From the NCBI RefSeq assembly GCF_002846365.1, contig NZ_PJMW01000002.1, forward strand, positions 3,224,001-3,288,000: a DNA stretch of 64,000 bases. Direction: 5' to 3'. Positions 23,256 to 52,655 of this stretch are shown here, piece after piece; position 1 is the first letter of the stretch; every line of letters begins with the position of its first letter. The stretch is from Nocardia fluminea. GTDB lineage: Bacteria > Actinomycetota > Actinomycetes > Mycobacteriales > Mycobacteriaceae. A program made the translations under genes and the position numbers. A model generated the notes under the pieces. The model was not told the DNA's origin and searched no databases. It was given only the letters and a program-made list of their open reading frames with translations.

Positions 23256-24545
23256 TCAGCCGAGCGCGTAGAGCTGTCCGCCGCGTCGTTCGAAGACCGT
23301 GTTGCCCAGGACGGCGGTGGAGATGGTGTCGCCGCGGTAGTCCGTGCGCGTGAGGGGGATCTCGGCGACGGTCGCGCCGTTGCCGCTGTCCACCGCGAGC
23401 TGCCCGCCGGAGACCGGGACCAGCAGCCTGCCCGCCATCAGCGCGGGGGTGCCCAGCGCATCGCGCACGGTCCAGACCGGCTGCAAGGTGCTCGAGCTCA
23501 AGGCGATCAGGCTGTCGCCCGTGAAGACGTAGATCGCCGAGCCGAGGCGGGTCACCGTGGCGCGCTCGTCCCACGGCGCGGCGAGCTGGTGGGTCGCGAT
23601 CTCGTTACCGGTGCCGTCGTGCACGGCGATCCTGGCGGGCAGTCCGAGGCCGGTCGCGGTGGGCTCTGTCGGCGGATAGTAGACGGCGATCTTGTTGTCC
23701 GACACCGCGATCACCCGCACGTCAGGGGAGTCCGCGCCCGGTGCGGTGAGCACTCGCGAGCCGTGCTCCTCGGGGGCGGTCGACTCCTTCGGCGCCGGAT
23801 TGAGCACCGTGAGCCGGTTGGTCGCGTCGCCGGGGCAGCGCTCGAGCACCGCCAGACGCGAGGAACTCGACGCGGCCGACCGCAGCGCACATCCGCTGCG
23901 CGGCTGGGTGTTCGGGTTCACCGGGGCATCGACATAGCCGTACTCGAGGGTGCGCACCAGATCCGAGCGCCACATCTCCAGCCGGTTCGCGCCGAGCGCC
24001 AGCAGGTAGGTGCCGTCGCCGCTGACGCGGATCTCGTCGTCCATGTAGCTGCTGCGCGCGACCCGGCGCTCACCGGTATCGGCCTCGAGCATCACCGACT
24101 GACTGCACCCACGCTGATCGCGATAGGTGGCGATCACGGTCCCGAACTGCGACTCGACCCCGCACAGCGGCATGTCCCGGCGATACCACCACAGCTGATT
24201 ACCGCTGACCGGATCACGTCCGCTCACGGTGCCGTGGTCGCCGGTCACCACCACATTGCCCGAGGTGAGCGCCCGCCTGCTCGACTCGTCGGCGGCATGC
24301 CACTGCTCGCGCAAGGTGGTGGGCAGCTGGGTGGCCGCGGTGATGGTGGGTGCGGGCGAGGCGGCGGTCACCGAATCGGTCCCGGTGGCGTCGGCACGCG
24401 CCCAGACGACGAACGCCGCCACTATGAGAGTGACGGCGATTGCGATTGCTACGAAGATGTCGGCGCGTGTCCGCCGTTCGGGTGCGAGCACGAACGCGAC
24501 ACTAGTCGATCGGGATTTCCTGGCGGAGCCTGCCGTCGGGTGCAC
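23256..24545 (-). CDS. Membrane-anchored beta-propeller (PQQ-like) protein, Rv3212-like
   Basis: 429 residues. A short cytoplasmic lead with basic residues, one membrane helix (DIFVAIAIAVTLIVAAFVVWA, ~29-49), a Thr/Pro/Ala linker, then a large extracellular domain with repeated strand patterns (GTVSGRDPVSGNQLWWYRRD, TYLLALGANRLEMW, AIYVFTGDSLIALSS, GGQLAVDSGNG, GGQLYALG) that read as blades of an eight-bladed quinoprotein-like propeller. Three or four cysteines may pair. Function unknown; the position matches Rv3212. GTG at 24545. Confidence 0.8.
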   Translation of the reverse strand: MHPTAGSARKSRSTSVAFVLAPERRTRADIFVAIAIAVTLIVAAFVVWARADATGTDSVTAASPAPTITAATQLPTTLREQWHAADESSRRALTSGNVVVTGDHGTVSGRDPVSGNQLWWYRRDMPLCGVESQFGTVIATYRDQRGCSQSVMLEADTGERRVARSSYMDDEIRVSGDGTYLLALGANRLEMWRSDLVRTLEYGYVDAPVNPNTQPRSGCALRSAASSSSRLAVLERCPGDATNRLTVLNPAPKESTAPEEHGSRVLTAPGADSPDVRVIAVSDNKIAVYYPPTEPTATGLGLPARIAVHDGTGNEIATHQLAAPWDERATVTRLGSAIYVFTGDSLIALSSSTLQPVWTVRDALGTPALMAGRLLVPVSGGQLAVDSGNGATVAEIPLTRTDYRGDTISTAVLGNTVFERRGGQLYALG

Positions 24546-24655
24546 AGGGGACTCGACGGTGGCGGCTTCGGGGTGGCTGGGAGTGCGGTAGGGCTGTGGG
24601 CTCTGGCGGTGAGTGTGGCTGGGAGGGCGGTAGGGCTGCAGACGCAGGGGTTTGG

Positions 24656-24842
24656 TAGTCCCAGGCAGGTTTGACGCTGTGTTTGTTGGAGCGCTGGCGC
24701 GCTCGAGTCGCGGCCCTGAGGGGCCGCCGGTTAGCCACCGGGGCTTGCTCCTTCGTCGCCTACGCCCCGGCGGCTAACCGGCGGCCCGGCCGCGACCGGC
24801 CACTTCGTGGCCGTCCCTCCCTAGGGGTCGGGAGTGCGGTGG
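24656..24842. repeat. Dispersed structured repeat, copy A
   Basis: 187 bp, about 85% identical to 52194-52382. Predicted folding: a small hairpin (24689-24694 with 24699-24704); an 8-bp outer stem TCGCGGCC (24708-24715) with GGCCGCGA (24788-24795), then a bulge CTGAG; an inner 24-bp stem (24721-24744 with 24764-24787, one mismatch) closed by the loop TTGCTCCTTCGTCGCCTAC; and a third hairpin GGCCAC-TTC-GTGGCC (24798-24812). Differences from copy B in the stems are compensated. No open frame is shared between copies. Confidence 0.8.
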
Positions 24843-24987: not shown

Positions 24988-26673
24988 TCAGGCGTCTACG
25001 GTGGCTGCCGCGTCCGACGCGGTGGCTTCCGCGGGCTTGCGGCGACGCCTGCGGCGGGCCGGCTTGGCTGCGTCGTCGCCGTCGGCCGGGGCCGATTCGG
25101 GGGCGTCGTCAGGTTCGCTGGTGGCCGACTCGGTGGTGCTTGCTTCGCCTGCTTCGGCGGGCTTGCGGCGGCGGCGCCTGCGGCGGGCGGGCTTGTCGCC
25201 TTCGGCGGCCTCGTCGGACGACTCGGTGGTTGTGGCCGATTCGGTGCCTTCGGTGATGGGGGTGCCCGCGCGGGTGCGGCGGCGGCTGCGGGAGGACTTG
25301 GGGCGCTCGGTGCGTTCCTCGACTACGGCGTCGTCGTCGCGGGCGGGGGCCGCGGGCTTGCGGATCACGCCGGTGATGCCCTCGGGGATGCCGAGGTCGC
25401 TGTAGAGGTGGGGGGAGCGCGAGTAGGTCTCGGCGGGGTCGGCCATGTTCAGGCCGAGGGCCTTGTTGATCGACTCCCAGCGGTGCAGCTCGTCCCAGTC
25501 GATGAGGGTGATCGCGACACCGGTGCGGCCGGCGCGGCCGGTGCGGCCGATCCGGTGCACGTAGGTCTTCTCGTCCTCGGGGCACTGGTAGTTGATGACG
25601 TGGGTGACGTCGTCGATGTCGATACCGCGCGCGGCGACATCGGTGGCCACGAGCACGTCGATGGTGCCCTTGCGGAACTTGGTCAGCGCCTTCTCGCGGG
25701 CGATCTGACCGAGGTCACCGTGCACGGCGCCGACATTGAAACCACGCTCGGCGAGATCGTCGGCCACCTTCTGCGCGGTGCGCTTGGTGCGGGTGAAGAT
25801 CATCGTCGCGCCGCGGGACTCCGCCTGCAGCACGCGCGCGACCAGTTCGGCCTTGTCCATCGCGTGCGCCCGATAGACGAACTGGGCGGTGCGATCGTGC
25901 ACCGCGGAGTCGTTGGCGAGCTCGGCGCGGATGTGCGTCGGCCTGGTCAGGAAGGTGCGGGCCAGGGTGATGATCGGGCCGGGCATGGTGGCCGAGAACA
26001 GCATCGTCTGACGCTTGTCGGGCACCATCGACAGGATGCGCTCGATATCGGGCAGGAAGCCCAGGTCGAGCATCTCGTCGGCCTCGTCGAGGACGAGCAC
26101 GCCGATCTTGCCCAGGATCAGGTGGTTCTGGTTCGCCAGATCCAGCAGGCGACCGGGGGTGCCGACGACCACGTCGACGCCGTCGCGCAGTGCGGCGATC
26201 TGGGTGTCGTACGGGCGGCCGCCGTAGATGGCGGCGACCTTCAGCGAACCCTGGTGGTTGGTCAGGTACTTGCTCGCGTTCTCCAGGTCCTTGGTGACCT
26301 GGATGCACAGCTCGCGCGTCGGCACGATCACCAGTGCGCGCGGGGTGCCGTCGAGCGGGGTGGTGCCGGTGTCGGCGGTGGCGATGCGGTGCAGCAGCGG
26401 CACGCCGAAACCGAAGGTCTTGCCCATGCCGGTGCGGGCCTGGCCGATGAGATCCTCGCCGGCCAGTGCCAGCGGAAGGGTGAGTTCCTGAATCGCGAAG
26501 GTGCGTTCGATCCCGATCTCGCCGAGTGCGCGCACGATTTCTTCGCGCACGCCCAATTCGGCAAAACTCGGCGGGATGTGGGTGGTGTCCAGCTCGGCCG
26601 TCAGGAGTGTGTCGGCCAAACCGGGTTCCTGTTCGACAGTGATCTTGCTCAGTGTTCGTGCCTTCCTCGTCAT
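24988..26673 (-). CDS. rhlE: DEAD-box RNA helicase RhlE-type
   Basis: 561 residues. Helicase core in order: Q-motif (FAELGVREEIVRALGEIGIERTFAIQELTLP), I ARTGMGKT, Ia PTRELCIQV, Ib TPGRLL, II DEAD, III SAT, IV MIFTRTKRTAQKV, V ATDVAARGIDI, VI YVHRIGRTGRAGR. The last ~120 residues are a low-complexity tail with several RRRRRRKPAEA-type basic blocks separated by acidic Ser/Thr/Glu stretches, typical of RNA-binding tails. ATG 26673 gives a 60-residue lead before the Q motif. A long AT-containing upstream region (to 27153) may hold a regulatory leader. Position matches Rv3211. Confidence 0.93.
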   Translation of the reverse strand: MTRKARTLSKITVEQEPGLADTLLTAELDTTHIPPSFAELGVREEIVRALGEIGIERTFAIQELTLPLALAGEDLIGQARTGMGKTFGFGVPLLHRIATADTGTTPLDGTPRALVIVPTRELCIQVTKDLENASKYLTNHQGSLKVAAIYGGRPYDTQIAALRDGVDVVVGTPGRLLDLANQNHLILGKIGVLVLDEADEMLDLGFLPDIERILSMVPDKRQTMLFSATMPGPIITLARTFLTRPTHIRAELANDSAVHDRTAQFVYRAHAMDKAELVARVLQAESRGATMIFTRTKRTAQKVADDLAERGFNVGAVHGDLGQIAREKALTKFRKGTIDVLVATDVAARGIDIDDVTHVINYQCPEDEKTYVHRIGRTGRAGRTGVAITLIDWDELHRWESINKALGLNMADPAETYSRSPHLYSDLGIPEGITGVIRKPAAPARDDDAVVEERTERPKSSRSRRRTRAGTPITEGTESATTTESSDEAAEGDKPARRRRRRRKPAEAGEASTTESATSEPDDAPESAPADGDDAAKPARRRRRRKPAEATASDAAATVDA

Positions 26674-27153
26674 TGCATCTCGCACGCACGAGGTGGGGCG
26701 GGCCGGTCGGCCCGCGACGACCACATACCCGCCTGTGATATTCACCGGGCCGGCGCCGGATAACCATCGCCGACCAGGCTTTACGCGTGGTCGTCGAGAC
26801 GGTGTCATCGGCGCGGCGCTGCGGTGATGCGGATTCGTTGCGCGCACATTTTCTTGGACATTGCTGTCCGGGCAACGCCGCTGACCGCCCGCGCTGTGCG
26901 CCGGTGGAGTGCCACGCCACGGAGTATGTCCGGGCATCGAAATCAGCGTTGTCCACGGCGATTGTAGCGTGATATTCTGCGGAATCCGAATTTTGACGTG
27001 GCTGAATGCCGCTCGAATATGGGCTGCCAGGGGATAGGCGCGGCATGAGTGGTGTGGCGCAGCGCAATTGATGATCGCCCGATTTCGCGAGTGTCCGCGG
27101 GTGTAATCGAGCTCACTGGTACCGGCGGTACCACGTGTGAGACATTTCTAGTC
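26674..27153. other. 480-bp gene-free region between rhlE and PhaC-like gene
   Basis: No credible coding sequence on either strand. It is less GC-biased than the flanks, with patches such as GTGATATTCTGCGG near 26970. It must carry the divergent promoters; a long 5' leader for rhlE is possible. A palindrome at 27117-27133 lies near the right end. Confidence 0.6.
27117..27133. promoter_or_regulatory. Palindrome TGGTACC-GGC-GGTACCA
   Basis: Perfect 7-bp arms (27117-27123, 27127-27133) 20 bases before the GTG at 27154, flanked by CTCAC/GTGAG in inverted order. Placement fits an operator over the promoter of the hydrolase gene. Confidence 0.45.
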
Positions 27154-50207: not shown

Positions 50208-51448
50208 CCTCTCCCACCGACAGTGGCCCCTGCCTTGCCGGCTTCACCATCGGCGTCACCGCGGCTCGCCGCGCCGAGGAATTCAGCACCCTGCTCACCC
50301 GCAAGGGCGCGAGCGTCGTGTCAGCCCCTGCGATCCGCATCATTCCGCTGGCCGATGACACCGAGCTCGAGCGGGTCACCGAACTGCTGATCGCCGATCC
50401 GCCGCAGATCACCGTCGCCACCACCGGCATCGGCTTCCGCGGCTGGATGGAAGCGGCGGAGGGCTGGGGCCTGGCCGAGGTTCTGCGCGACACCCTCGCC
50501 TCGACCCGCATGCTGGCCCGCGGCCCCAAGGCCAAGGGCGCGATCCGCGCCGCCGAACTGCGTGAGGAATGGTCGCCTGCCTCGGAGTCCTCGGCCGAAG
50601 TGCTCGACCATCTGCTGGCCGAGGGCGTCGAAGGCGTCCGCATCGCGGTGCAGTTGCACGGCGCGACCACCGAGTGGGAGCCGGTTCCCGACTTCTGCGA
50701 GGTGCTGCGCTGCGCGGGCGCCGACGTGGTCCCCGTCCCGGTGTACCGCTGGGAGCCGCCGGCCGATCGTGGGCCGATGGACAACATGATCGATGCGATC
50801 ATCTCCGGCAGCCTGGACTGCGTCACCTTCACCAGCGCGCCCGCCGTGGCGTCACTGTTGATGCGCGCCAAGGAAACCGGGCTGCTCGAGTCGGTGCTGC
50901 ACGCGTTCCGCGGCCGGGTGCTCGCGGCCTGCGTCGGTCCGATCACCGCGGCCCCGCTGGAAGAACTCGGCGTGCCGACGACGATGCCCGGCCGTGCCCG
51001 GCTGGGTGCGCTGGCTCGCCATGTGGCAGAAGAACTTCCGCGTCGCGCCAGCCGCATCTACGCGGCCGGTCATCTGATCAGCGTGCGCGGTGGCTGTGTT
51101 GTCGTCGACGGGGAGGTGCGTCAGCTGGCGCCCGCCCCGATGGCCTTGATGCGATCGCTGGCTCGTCAGCCAGGCCGGGTCGTGTCGCGGGAAGATCTGC
51201 TGGCCGCGTTGCCCGGTGGCGGTGACGACACCCACGCGGTGGAGACCGCGATCGCGCGACTGCGCGCCGGACTGGGTACTCCCAAGGCGATCCAGACCGT
51301 GGTCAAGCGCGGCTACCGGCTGGCGCTGGACGCGGCCGACTGCTCCGACACGCCACCCGTGCGGGCGGCTGTCCAGGCACCGCACGCCGCGGGGATCGGA
51401 ACGCCCGCCCGCTCGCCCCGGCCCGCCCAAGCGATCGGAGTGTGGTGA
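50204..51448 (+). CDS. nnaR: NnaR: HemD-like domain fused to winged helix, nitrate/nitrite regulator
   Basis: 414 residues. Residues ~1-265 are a uroporphyrinogen-III-synthase-like bilobed domain (TIGVTAARRAEEFSTLLTRKGASV, TFTSAPAVASLL); residues ~290-380 are an OmpR-type winged helix (LAPAPMALMRSLARQPGRVVSREDLLAALPGG, THAVETAIARLRAGLG, VVKRGYRLAL). This fusion is the NnaR regulator that in Streptomyces and M. smegmatis works with GlnR on nitrate/nitrite genes. Co-translated with nirD. Confidence 0.9.
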   Translation: MTSPTDSGPCLAGFTIGVTAARRAEEFSTLLTRKGASVVSAPAIRIIPLADDTELERVTELLIADPPQITVATTGIGFRGWMEAAEGWGLAEVLRDTLASTRMLARGPKAKGAIRAAELREEWSPASESSAEVLDHLLAEGVEGVRIAVQLHGATTEWEPVPDFCEVLRCAGADVVPVPVYRWEPPADRGPMDNMIDAIISGSLDCVTFTSAPAVASLLMRAKETGLLESVLHAFRGRVLAACVGPITAAPLEELGVPTTMPGRARLGALARHVAEELPRRASRIYAAGHLISVRGGCVVVDGEVRQLAPAPMALMRSLARQPGRVVSREDLLAALPGGGDDTHAVETAIARLRAGLGTPKAIQTVVKRGYRLALDAADCSDTPPVRAAVQAPHAAGIGTPARSPRPAQAIGVW

Positions 51449-52179
51449 GCGCCGGGCAGCCGGGTGAGCCGGCTCTGGTACTGGTCGCGCACGGGACTCG
51501 CAGCGCGCGCGGCGTGGAGATGATCGCCGCGCTCGCCGACGCGGTGGCCGCCGAGCTCGGCGTCGCGGTGTCCTCGGCGCCGAATACCGCGCTGCGGACC
51601 GCTTTCGTCGACGTGCTCGGCCCGTCACCGTCGGAGGTGCTGCGGGACCTCGATGGGCCCGCTGTCGTAGTTCCGGCGTTCCTCGCTTCCGGCTATCACG
51701 TGTATCAAGATGTTCCGCGTGAGGTCGCCGAGAGTGGGCACAGCGCGGTGGCTGTGACCGAGGCGATGGGGCCGGATCCGGCGCTGACCAGGATCATGGC
51801 GGTGCGGTTGCGGGCAGCGGGTTGGAAGCCGGGGGATGCGGTCGTCTTCGCGGCCGCTGGGTCTTCGGATTCGCGTGCGCGCCAGGATGTTCGGCGGGCG
51901 GCGGGGATGCTGGCCGAGCAGCTGGGTGTGCCGGTGAAGATCGGCTATGTGGCGACCGGGACGCCCAAGGTGTCCGAAGTGGTTGCCTCGCTGCGTGAGT
52001 CGGGTGCTGGGCGGGTGTTCGTTGCTTCTTATCTGCTGGCGCACGGGCTGTTTCATCAGCGGTTGCACGATGCCGGGGCCGATGGGGTGGCTGAGCCGAT
52101 CGGGGTGCATCCGGGGGTTGTTCGGTTGATTGTGGATCGGTATCGGAGTGCTGCTCGGGAGCTGGTCGGGGTTCGGTGA
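51445..52179 (+). CDS. Sirohydrochlorin chelatase (CbiX/SirB type)
   Basis: 244 residues; GTG 51445 overlaps the nnaR stop by four bases. Metal-binding histidines in LVAHGTRS and GYHVYQDV; two similar halves (PALVLVAHGT and DAVVFAAAGSSD), the second half lacking one histidine as usual. It inserts iron into sirohydrochlorin to make sirohaem, the cofactor of NirB, which explains its place in the operon. Resembles Rv0259c. Confidence 0.92.
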   Translation: MSAGQPGEPALVLVAHGTRSARGVEMIAALADAVAAELGVAVSSAPNTALRTAFVDVLGPSPSEVLRDLDGPAVVVPAFLASGYHVYQDVPREVAESGHSAVAVTEAMGPDPALTRIMAVRLRAAGWKPGDAVVFAAAGSSDSRARQDVRRAAGMLAEQLGVPVKIGYVATGTPKVSEVVASLRESGAGRVFVASYLLAHGLFHQRLHDAGADGVAEPIGVHPGVVRLIVDRYRSAARELVGVR

Positions 52180-52193
52180 GGTTCGGGGTTCAG

Positions 52194-52382
52194 TAGTCCC
52201 AGGTGGTTTGACGCTGTGTTTGTTGGCGCGCTGGCGCGCGCGTGTCCGCGGCCCTGATTGGCCCGCCGGTCAGGCGCCGGGGCTTGCTCCTTCGTCGCCT
52301 ACGCCCCGGCGCCTGACCGGCGGGCCGGCCGCGGACCGGCCACTGCGTGGCCGTCCCTCCCTAGGGGTCGGGAGTGCGGTGG
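52194..52382. repeat. Dispersed structured repeat, copy B
   Basis: 189 bp, the same element as 24656-24842. Stems: GCGCGC-TGGC-GCGCGC (near 52226-52240); outer stem TCCGCGGCC (52245-52253) with 52327-52335, then a bulge CTGATT; a perfect 24-bp inner stem (52260-52283 with 52303-52326) closed by the identical loop TTGCTCCTTCGTCGCCTAC; GGCCAC-TGC-GTGGCC. Starts 15 bases after the chelatase gene. Confidence 0.8.
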
Positions 52383-52390
52383 CTGGGTTG

Positions 52391-52655
52391 GGTGGGTTGT
52401 TGAAGACGGGGACGCGCTGGGTGTGCTTGGTGGGTTGTTGGAGGCGGGGACGCGCTGGGTGTGCTTGGCGGGTTGTTGAAGGCGGGGACGCGCTGGGTGT
52501 GCTTGGCGGGTCGTTGGAGACGGGGACGCGCTGGGTGTGCTTGGTGGGTTATTGGAGACGGGGACAGTTCTGAGGGGGCTGGGTGGGTTGTCGACGACTG
52601 GGACAGTCCGGAGGGGGCTGGGTGGTCGTTGAAGACGGGGGCGGTCCGGGATGGG
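52391..52655. repeat. 38-bp tandem repeat (minisatellite), about seven units
   Basis: Units begin at 52391, 52429, 52467, 52505, 52543, 52581 and 52620, each opening GGYGGGTTGTTGRAGRCGGG. The first four are nearly identical and end GCTGGGTGTGCTT; the last three have diverged (GTCCGGAGGGGGCT). Length variation by slippage is expected. Confidence 0.9.

Follow-up and report, generated by a model that had tools for sequence, protein, structure and literature searches.

The window analysed here is a stretch of 64,000 nucleotides of the Nocardia fluminea genome (8.06 Mb; G000:C2:3224001-3288000), referred to below as the own genome. Copy A of the repeat is flanked by a gene with a weak PQQ_2 match (23256-24545) on one side and a DEAD-box helicase gene (24988-26937) on the other, both on the minus strand, and copy B comes after a CbiX gene (51442-52179, plus strand). 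The initial annotation had described both as copies of an unassigned structured repeat, and re-reading of the sequence recovered the two copies in place together with the differences reported between them. However, its left starts (24656 and 52194) fall within a left extension of about 30 bp, and the family-wide left end is at approximately 24681 and 52218. All features of the repeat are assigned to the minus strand, which is the folded one.

In copy A, the left extension module (GTTTGGTAGTCCCAGG..., 24650-24680) ends in the junction motif GCTGT (24676-24680); such an extension is common to 14 of the 27 aligned own-genome copies. The core element (24681-24839), supported by BLAST, alignment, mismatches, triloops and covariation, begins with hairpin P1 (24689-24704), which has the four-base loop TGGC on the plus strand. 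It continues with the left arm of P2 (24707-24715, partner 24788-24796), the left arm of P3 (24721-24743, partner 24765-24787), the conserved apical loop (24744-24764), the right arms of P3 and P2 (24765-24796) and hairpin P4 (24798-24812), whose minus-strand loop GAA is a GNA triloop. The arms were read from the sequence, with covariation as additional evidence for P3, a comparison of loops for the apical loop and a triloop census for P4.

Copy B was resolved in the same manner. Its extension module (52188-52217, from the sequence and the own-genome alignment) also ends in GCTGT (52213-52217), and the core (52218-52379, from BLAST, alignment and covariation) contains P1 (52226-52241), the P2 left arm (52244-52253, partner 52327-52336), the P3 left arm (52260-52282, partner 52304-52326), the apical loop (52283-52303), the P3 and P2 right arms (52304-52336) and P4 (52338-52352), with the GNA triloop GCA on the minus strand. 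The apical loop CTTGCTCCTTCGTCGCCTACG and the right-hand end CTAGGGGTCGGGAGTGCGG are the same in both copies. The stems differ as reported earlier: P1 is GAGCGC/GCGCTC in copy A and GCGCGC/GCGCGC in copy B, the outer stem reads GTCGCGGCC/GGCCGCGAC in copy A against GTCCGCGGCC/GGCCGCGGAC in copy B, and the inner stem changes from TTAGCC/GGCTAA to TCAGGC/GCCTGA.

A transposase was found among 0 of 8 nearby proteins scanned, in agreement with the initial annotation, and no Rfam family reached its gathering score and no tRNA or tmRNA gene was found within the window. To the right of copy B (52391-52640) there is a tandem array of 6.6 copies of a 38-bp unit, which also follows several other own-genome copies.

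Copy number and two types of the repeat in Nocardia

A BLAST search of the own genome with copy A gave 47 matches, several of them short or with the palindrome matched on the other strand, and the earlier count of two copies is therefore too low. The covariance model R1, built from 27 own-genome copies, found 34 matches in this genome at E<=1e-6. The expectation of further copies in related genomes was borne out by both kinds of search: at E<=1e-6, R1 had hits in 17 of the 20 Nocardia genomes selected (1 to 54 per genome), and at E<=0.001 it had hits in 11 of 12 selected. Across 60 genomes (own genome included), BLAST gave a match in 26, of which four were outside the genus, short and weak. 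When species genomes were scanned for the exact loop, at least 120 loci came up, and all 120 among the matches listed were titled Nocardia. A phage or plasmid origin was rejected, as the core of copy L027 had no match in phages or plasmids and viral contigs contained 0 exact loops. Copies A and B are thus two of many short mobile DNA repeats that form one large family, so far observed in Nocardia alone.

The elements are about 150-190 bp long, with three or four hairpins, and share one plan: P1, then P2 around P3 with the conserved apical motif, then often P4. Two types follow this plan. Copies A and B represent type I. Type II has the same left end, a P1 with the same TGGC loop, and P2, and its P3 is short and internally looped, with a strongly conserved interior around TACTCCTTCGTCGCACCCT. 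The core of the apical loop, CTCCTTCGTCGC, is present in both types. There are 22 type II matches in the own genome; another genome, G011, has 11 type II matches and no type I match. Own-genome places that match only the left half are mostly type II elements, plus variants and deletion derivatives. An autonomous version was sought among these half-copies and discarded, ten own-genome loci being type II elements, variants or deletion derivatives. The own-genome loci L271-L280 and L341-L348 hold type II elements and further variants, with other loops in L279 and L280.

In N. exalbida and N. gamkensis, type I units also form tandem arrays, repeating about every 122 bp (L071 800-1500, L072 700-1300, L178 and L179). 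The tail of the element itself contains a second degenerate unit, and the reading of these arrays as target duplications was therefore dropped.

Covariation and the folded strand

Copy A as read folds with z = -6.2 under DNA energies, and its sister copy L027 with z = -8.0 under RNA energies; in each case 0 of 200 shuffles were as good. Covariation was scored for P2, P3 and the apical hairpin in a MAFFT alignment of 58 reverse-strand copies. With this larger number of copies it proved strong, with 332 double-changed cells against 110.4 in shuffled alignments and a covariation score of 0.420 against 0.122 +/- 0.007 (0 of 500 for both). Double changes occurred in 20 of the 35 pairs. In total, 92.5% of the cells were paired, and pairing fell to 30-45% when the partner was slid along; because the structure was taken from the same alignment, the pairing percentage is favoured by this choice and the double changes are not. 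P3 was 99.6% paired and P2 only 74.3%, a difference that may reflect register shifts between subfamilies.

The covariation on which the initial annotation based its claim of selection on the fold is thus strong, but covariation alone is no proof of selection on each copy, because some stems at orthologous sites have changed in complementary blocks more than their flanks. Among 46 orthologous site pairs (a few of them within tandem arrays), several showed such block changes, and other pairs had a few uncompensated changes. In the pair L167/L201, seven of 24 positions have changed on each arm, the flanks are 94% and 85% identical, and the arms are still complementary. Such changes would also fit conversion between copies by replacement of whole hairpins, which is how we read them. 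The same pair, together with the existence of deletion derivatives, speaks for the copies being inert debris of past insertions, in which one arm is rewritten from the other by hairpin-templated repair and by conversion between copies, with no selection on the fold. We regard this explanation as improbable in view of the strand-specific features described below.

Mismatches, clustered stems and fold energies show that the fold belongs to the reverse complement of the strand initially described. P3 was walked outward from the loop in 147 distinct copies with the exact loop. On the strand read initially, 185 mismatched cells were A.C or C.A, against 9 that were G.T or T.G. The ratio was 131 to 7 (A.C to G.T) among 96 distinct stems, 43 to 7 and 28 to 6 when related stems were collapsed into 21 and 8 clusters, respectively, and 29 to 7 without the three busiest positions (p = 0.0003). 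An A.C mismatch on one strand corresponds to a G.T pair on its complement, which places the tolerated wobbles on the reverse strand.

The loops point to the same strand. On the reverse strand, 34 of the 39 distinct P1 and P4 triloop hairpins carry GNA, and none do on the forward strand; background triloops from the same loci are GNA in 37 and 36 of 634 on the two strands (6%), with stems of at least six pairs in the background and at least five in the elements. Of the 33 distinct P1 hairpins, 18 have tetraloops, most commonly GCCA on the reverse strand (8 of 18). Moreover, the reverse strand gives the better fold in 57 of 58 copies with DNA energies and in 49 of 58 with RNA energies. A blind process in duplex DNA, as supposed for inert debris, would leave unexplained why the wobbles are one-sided, why GNA loops keep to one strand and why two types with different stems have an apical motif in common. 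The unpaired columns also have no clear strand bias of substitution, in small numbers (G>A 6, C>T 6, T>C 9, A>G 5).

Folded single-stranded DNA is known to form GNA loops, and in Streptomyces telomere overhangs GCA loops closed by sheared G-A pairs have been reported (PMC4513846). Because of this precedent, the reverse-strand wobbles, the GNA triloops and the fold energies, we prefer single-stranded DNA over RNA as the probable folded form. A structured RNA and a DNA hairpin recognised by a protein were the two options offered initially, and they were the right two. RNA can also have GNA loops and G.T-type wobbles, and wobbles on one strand would fit G.U pairs equally well. A structured RNA family would have its reverse strand transcribed as a 3'UTR or small RNA, the folded RNA binding a protein or protecting or ending mRNAs, and dispersal would be secondary. 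This reading agrees with the preference of the copies for convergent gaps, i.e., the 3' ends of genes (35 of 96 against 58 of 331, p = 0.0002, with a simple gene caller), with a reverse strand co-directional with the genes in 29 of 48 tandem gaps, and with orthologous copies that persist with their stems intact. RNA loops are usually GNRA or UNCG, whereas the triloops found here are GNA; copies occur in both gene orientations, and a low-stringency Rfam search gave, below the gathering score, nothing but weak hits to miRNA hairpins of animals and plants and similar families. On balance, we consider a structured RNA family possible but unlikely.

Insertion sites, orientation and candidate mobilisers

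For eight own-genome sites, the two flanks were joined and used as queries against 118 Nocardia genomes; a comparison with relatives covered five sites, and at four of them relatives without the element were found. The initial interpretation changes here too: the copies are insertions missing from relatives at several sites, and the repeat superfamily has moved in the past. At the cupredoxin/glmS site, whose gene names come from a reading of the frames and not from a family search, the element is missing from 17 of 20 relatives; two (G089 and G062) carry the insertion with differing yet complementary stems, and one (G085) has P1 only. The empty site reads, e.g., ATCACCGTCGAGTGA, and the own genome ATCACTGT|GTCATAGG-element-CGAG. 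The element is also missing from three relatives at L021, one at L026 and eleven at L022. In the L022 relatives a different hairpin segment stands where the element would be, and at L017 three relatives hold an apparent P1/P2 remnant; therefore, neither is a clean insertion, and L017 was rejected as an empty site.

The left end is marked by RCNGT followed across the junction by GTTTnTTG and then by P1. CNGT stands at 76 of 111 non-redundant left junctions, compared with 10-17 in background windows. Left of the junction nothing is conserved on average, apart from the extension of about 30 bp in one own-genome subfamily, a module that begins with GTTTnGG after CNGG in many copies. The CNGT target is clean at the cupredoxin/glmS site but not at L021, and what lies left of the units in arrays does not match it. 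The right side is fuzzy, with tails of varying length after the core. In the right flanks of L010 and L015, sequence that is similar between the two (GTGTGTTG...) and resembles insertion-sequence ends takes over at CCTAG.

Neither a long target-site duplication nor terminal inverted repeats were found at the sites examined, which argues against an ordinary MITE mobilised by a DDE transposase via such repeats, even though the many short, intergenic, non-coding copies would suit one. To look for helper genes, 2458 ORFs (>=90 aa, GC-rich third positions) around 160 loci were grouped, and ten sequences were scanned, eight from the largest groups and two from the insert of L014. Seven of the eight group representatives were kinases, RNase PH, AlkZ-like proteins or ABC transporters, and one had no Pfam match. 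No recurrent transposase or helper beside the copies was seen among the groups scanned, and a linked helper gene was rejected, as the grouping yielded household genes and shared orthologous sites. The insert of L014 (150-1500, own genome, about C2:2867755-2869103) is an IS3-like insertion that splits a type I copy at the apical loop and encodes proteins with rve and HTH_Tnp_1 domains. The transposase inside a copy (L014/L019) interrupts the element, and no autonomous insertion sequence with the same ends was seen in the loci read. A MITE of this kind is, in our view, very improbable.

Enzymes acting from elsewhere in the genome were searched for by family. The Y1 transposase of REP and IS200 type (PF01797) was found in 0 of 18 Nocardia genomes and in 5 of 14 control genomes, and mobilisation of the RAYT/IS200 kind was rejected for want of the enzyme. 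The Y2 HUH transposase (PF04986) was found in 0 of 9 genomes, with 0 in the control genomes as well. Reverse transcriptase (PF00078) is present in 4 of 13 genomes and missing from G007, G016, G021 and G008, which hold 38, 17, 33 and 13 element matches, respectively; spread by reverse transcription was rejected, as the enzyme is missing from several copy-rich genomes. The own genome has three reverse-transcriptase genes of equal length and score (G000:C1:1053978, C2:3726639 and C3:40181).

The orientation of the copies was compared with the position of dnaA, at 1.697 Mb of the own contig C2, with the terminus taken as opposite. On this contig, 25 of 31 type I matches point away from dnaA (p = 0.0009); the 31 are a hand list including partial copies, and the flip in orientation had been noticed before dnaA was located. 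In 12 other genomes, 75 of 126 among the matches listed point away from dnaA, copies common to relatives not being independent. Three genomes carry the bias (G062, G119 and G113, 50 of 73), the other nine giving 25 of 53 among the matches listed. A general replication-strand rule was rejected, since it holds only in the own genome and these three. Where it holds, the forward strand lies on the lagging-strand template. Type II elements are without bias (9 of 21). Of the 126 listed copies in the 12 Nocardia genomes, 98 lie in the chromosome half nearer dnaA.

Comparison with known elements and interpretation

Insertion sequences of the IS200/IS605 family insert 3' of a short tetranucleotide, have a subterminal hairpin and produce no long target duplication. 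The Nocardia element partly resembles them, with CNGT at most left junctions but not at L021 or in the arrays, a subterminal hairpin, no long target duplication and, in one clade, a lagging-strand orientation bias; unlike IS200/IS605, it has no Y1 transposase, its right end is undefined, and the wobbles and loops mark the other strand. Integron attC sites fold on the bottom strand and keep their fold while the stems vary, as observed here, but the Nocardia element forms no cassette arrays and has a conserved apical loop instead of conserved boxes.

REP elements, mobilised by RAYT/TnpA-REP transposases, and CGTC REPs with no known transposase have been described (PMC3733652, PMC6006769). The Nocardia repeats resemble REPs in being high-copy, intergenic and palindromic, with species-specific variants and a folded single strand, and resemble CGTC REPs in that no dedicated transposase has been found. 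They differ from REPs in their length (20-65 in REPs, about 150-190 bp and three or four hairpins here) and in the conserved apical loop. The GTAG/GTGG foot of REPs was absent from 111 aligned left ends, which have GTTTnTTG before P1 instead, and the lack of Y1 transposase in the 18 Nocardia genomes sets them apart from the REPtron arrangement. The telomeric 3' overhangs of Streptomyces (PMC4513846) likewise combine a GC-rich hairpin cluster with GCA-type triloops on one strand, whereas the Nocardia copies are internal to the chromosome and number in the tens. The element resembles a REP or an IS200-type single-strand element, yet lacks defining features of both. No description of this repeat family was found in the accessible open-licence literature on Nocardia, actinobacterial repeats or the loop sequence.

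We give somewhat better than even chances to a non-autonomous, strand-specific mobile repeat superfamily of Nocardia that probably folds as single-stranded DNA. The reverse strand would act as folded single-stranded DNA, in which a protein may read the hairpins and the apical motif, and a single strand would be the form or the intermediate in which the element spreads, with a separate enzyme moving it in trans. Conversion within a genome may then swap stems between copies, which would account for the species-specific subfamilies. Against this reading stand the failure of the searches to find a mobiliser, the variable left end (the extra module of 14 of the 27 own-genome copies, and the array units) and the replication-strand bias, expected for single-strand elements and here limited to the own genome and three near relatives. 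The sites L017 and L022, the tetraloops of P1 and the incomplete pairing of P2 also weigh against it.

A transposase-free route is also conceivable, although we hold it to be distinctly improbable: the reverse strand, freed as stable hairpin single-stranded DNA, would act like an Okazaki fragment and prime on the lagging-strand template at ectopic sites with a GT end. Such priming would explain the sharp CNGT end on the 3' side of that strand, the variable 5' side and the absence of target duplication, as well as a replication-strand bias where insertion is recent, as in the own genome.

The direction of wobbles and the type of loop show which strand of a palindrome works from its letters alone, and here they point to folded single-stranded DNA. 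If these repeats spread with neither an HUH transposase nor a reverse transcriptase, the old question of REP-like spread without a transposase would become directly testable.
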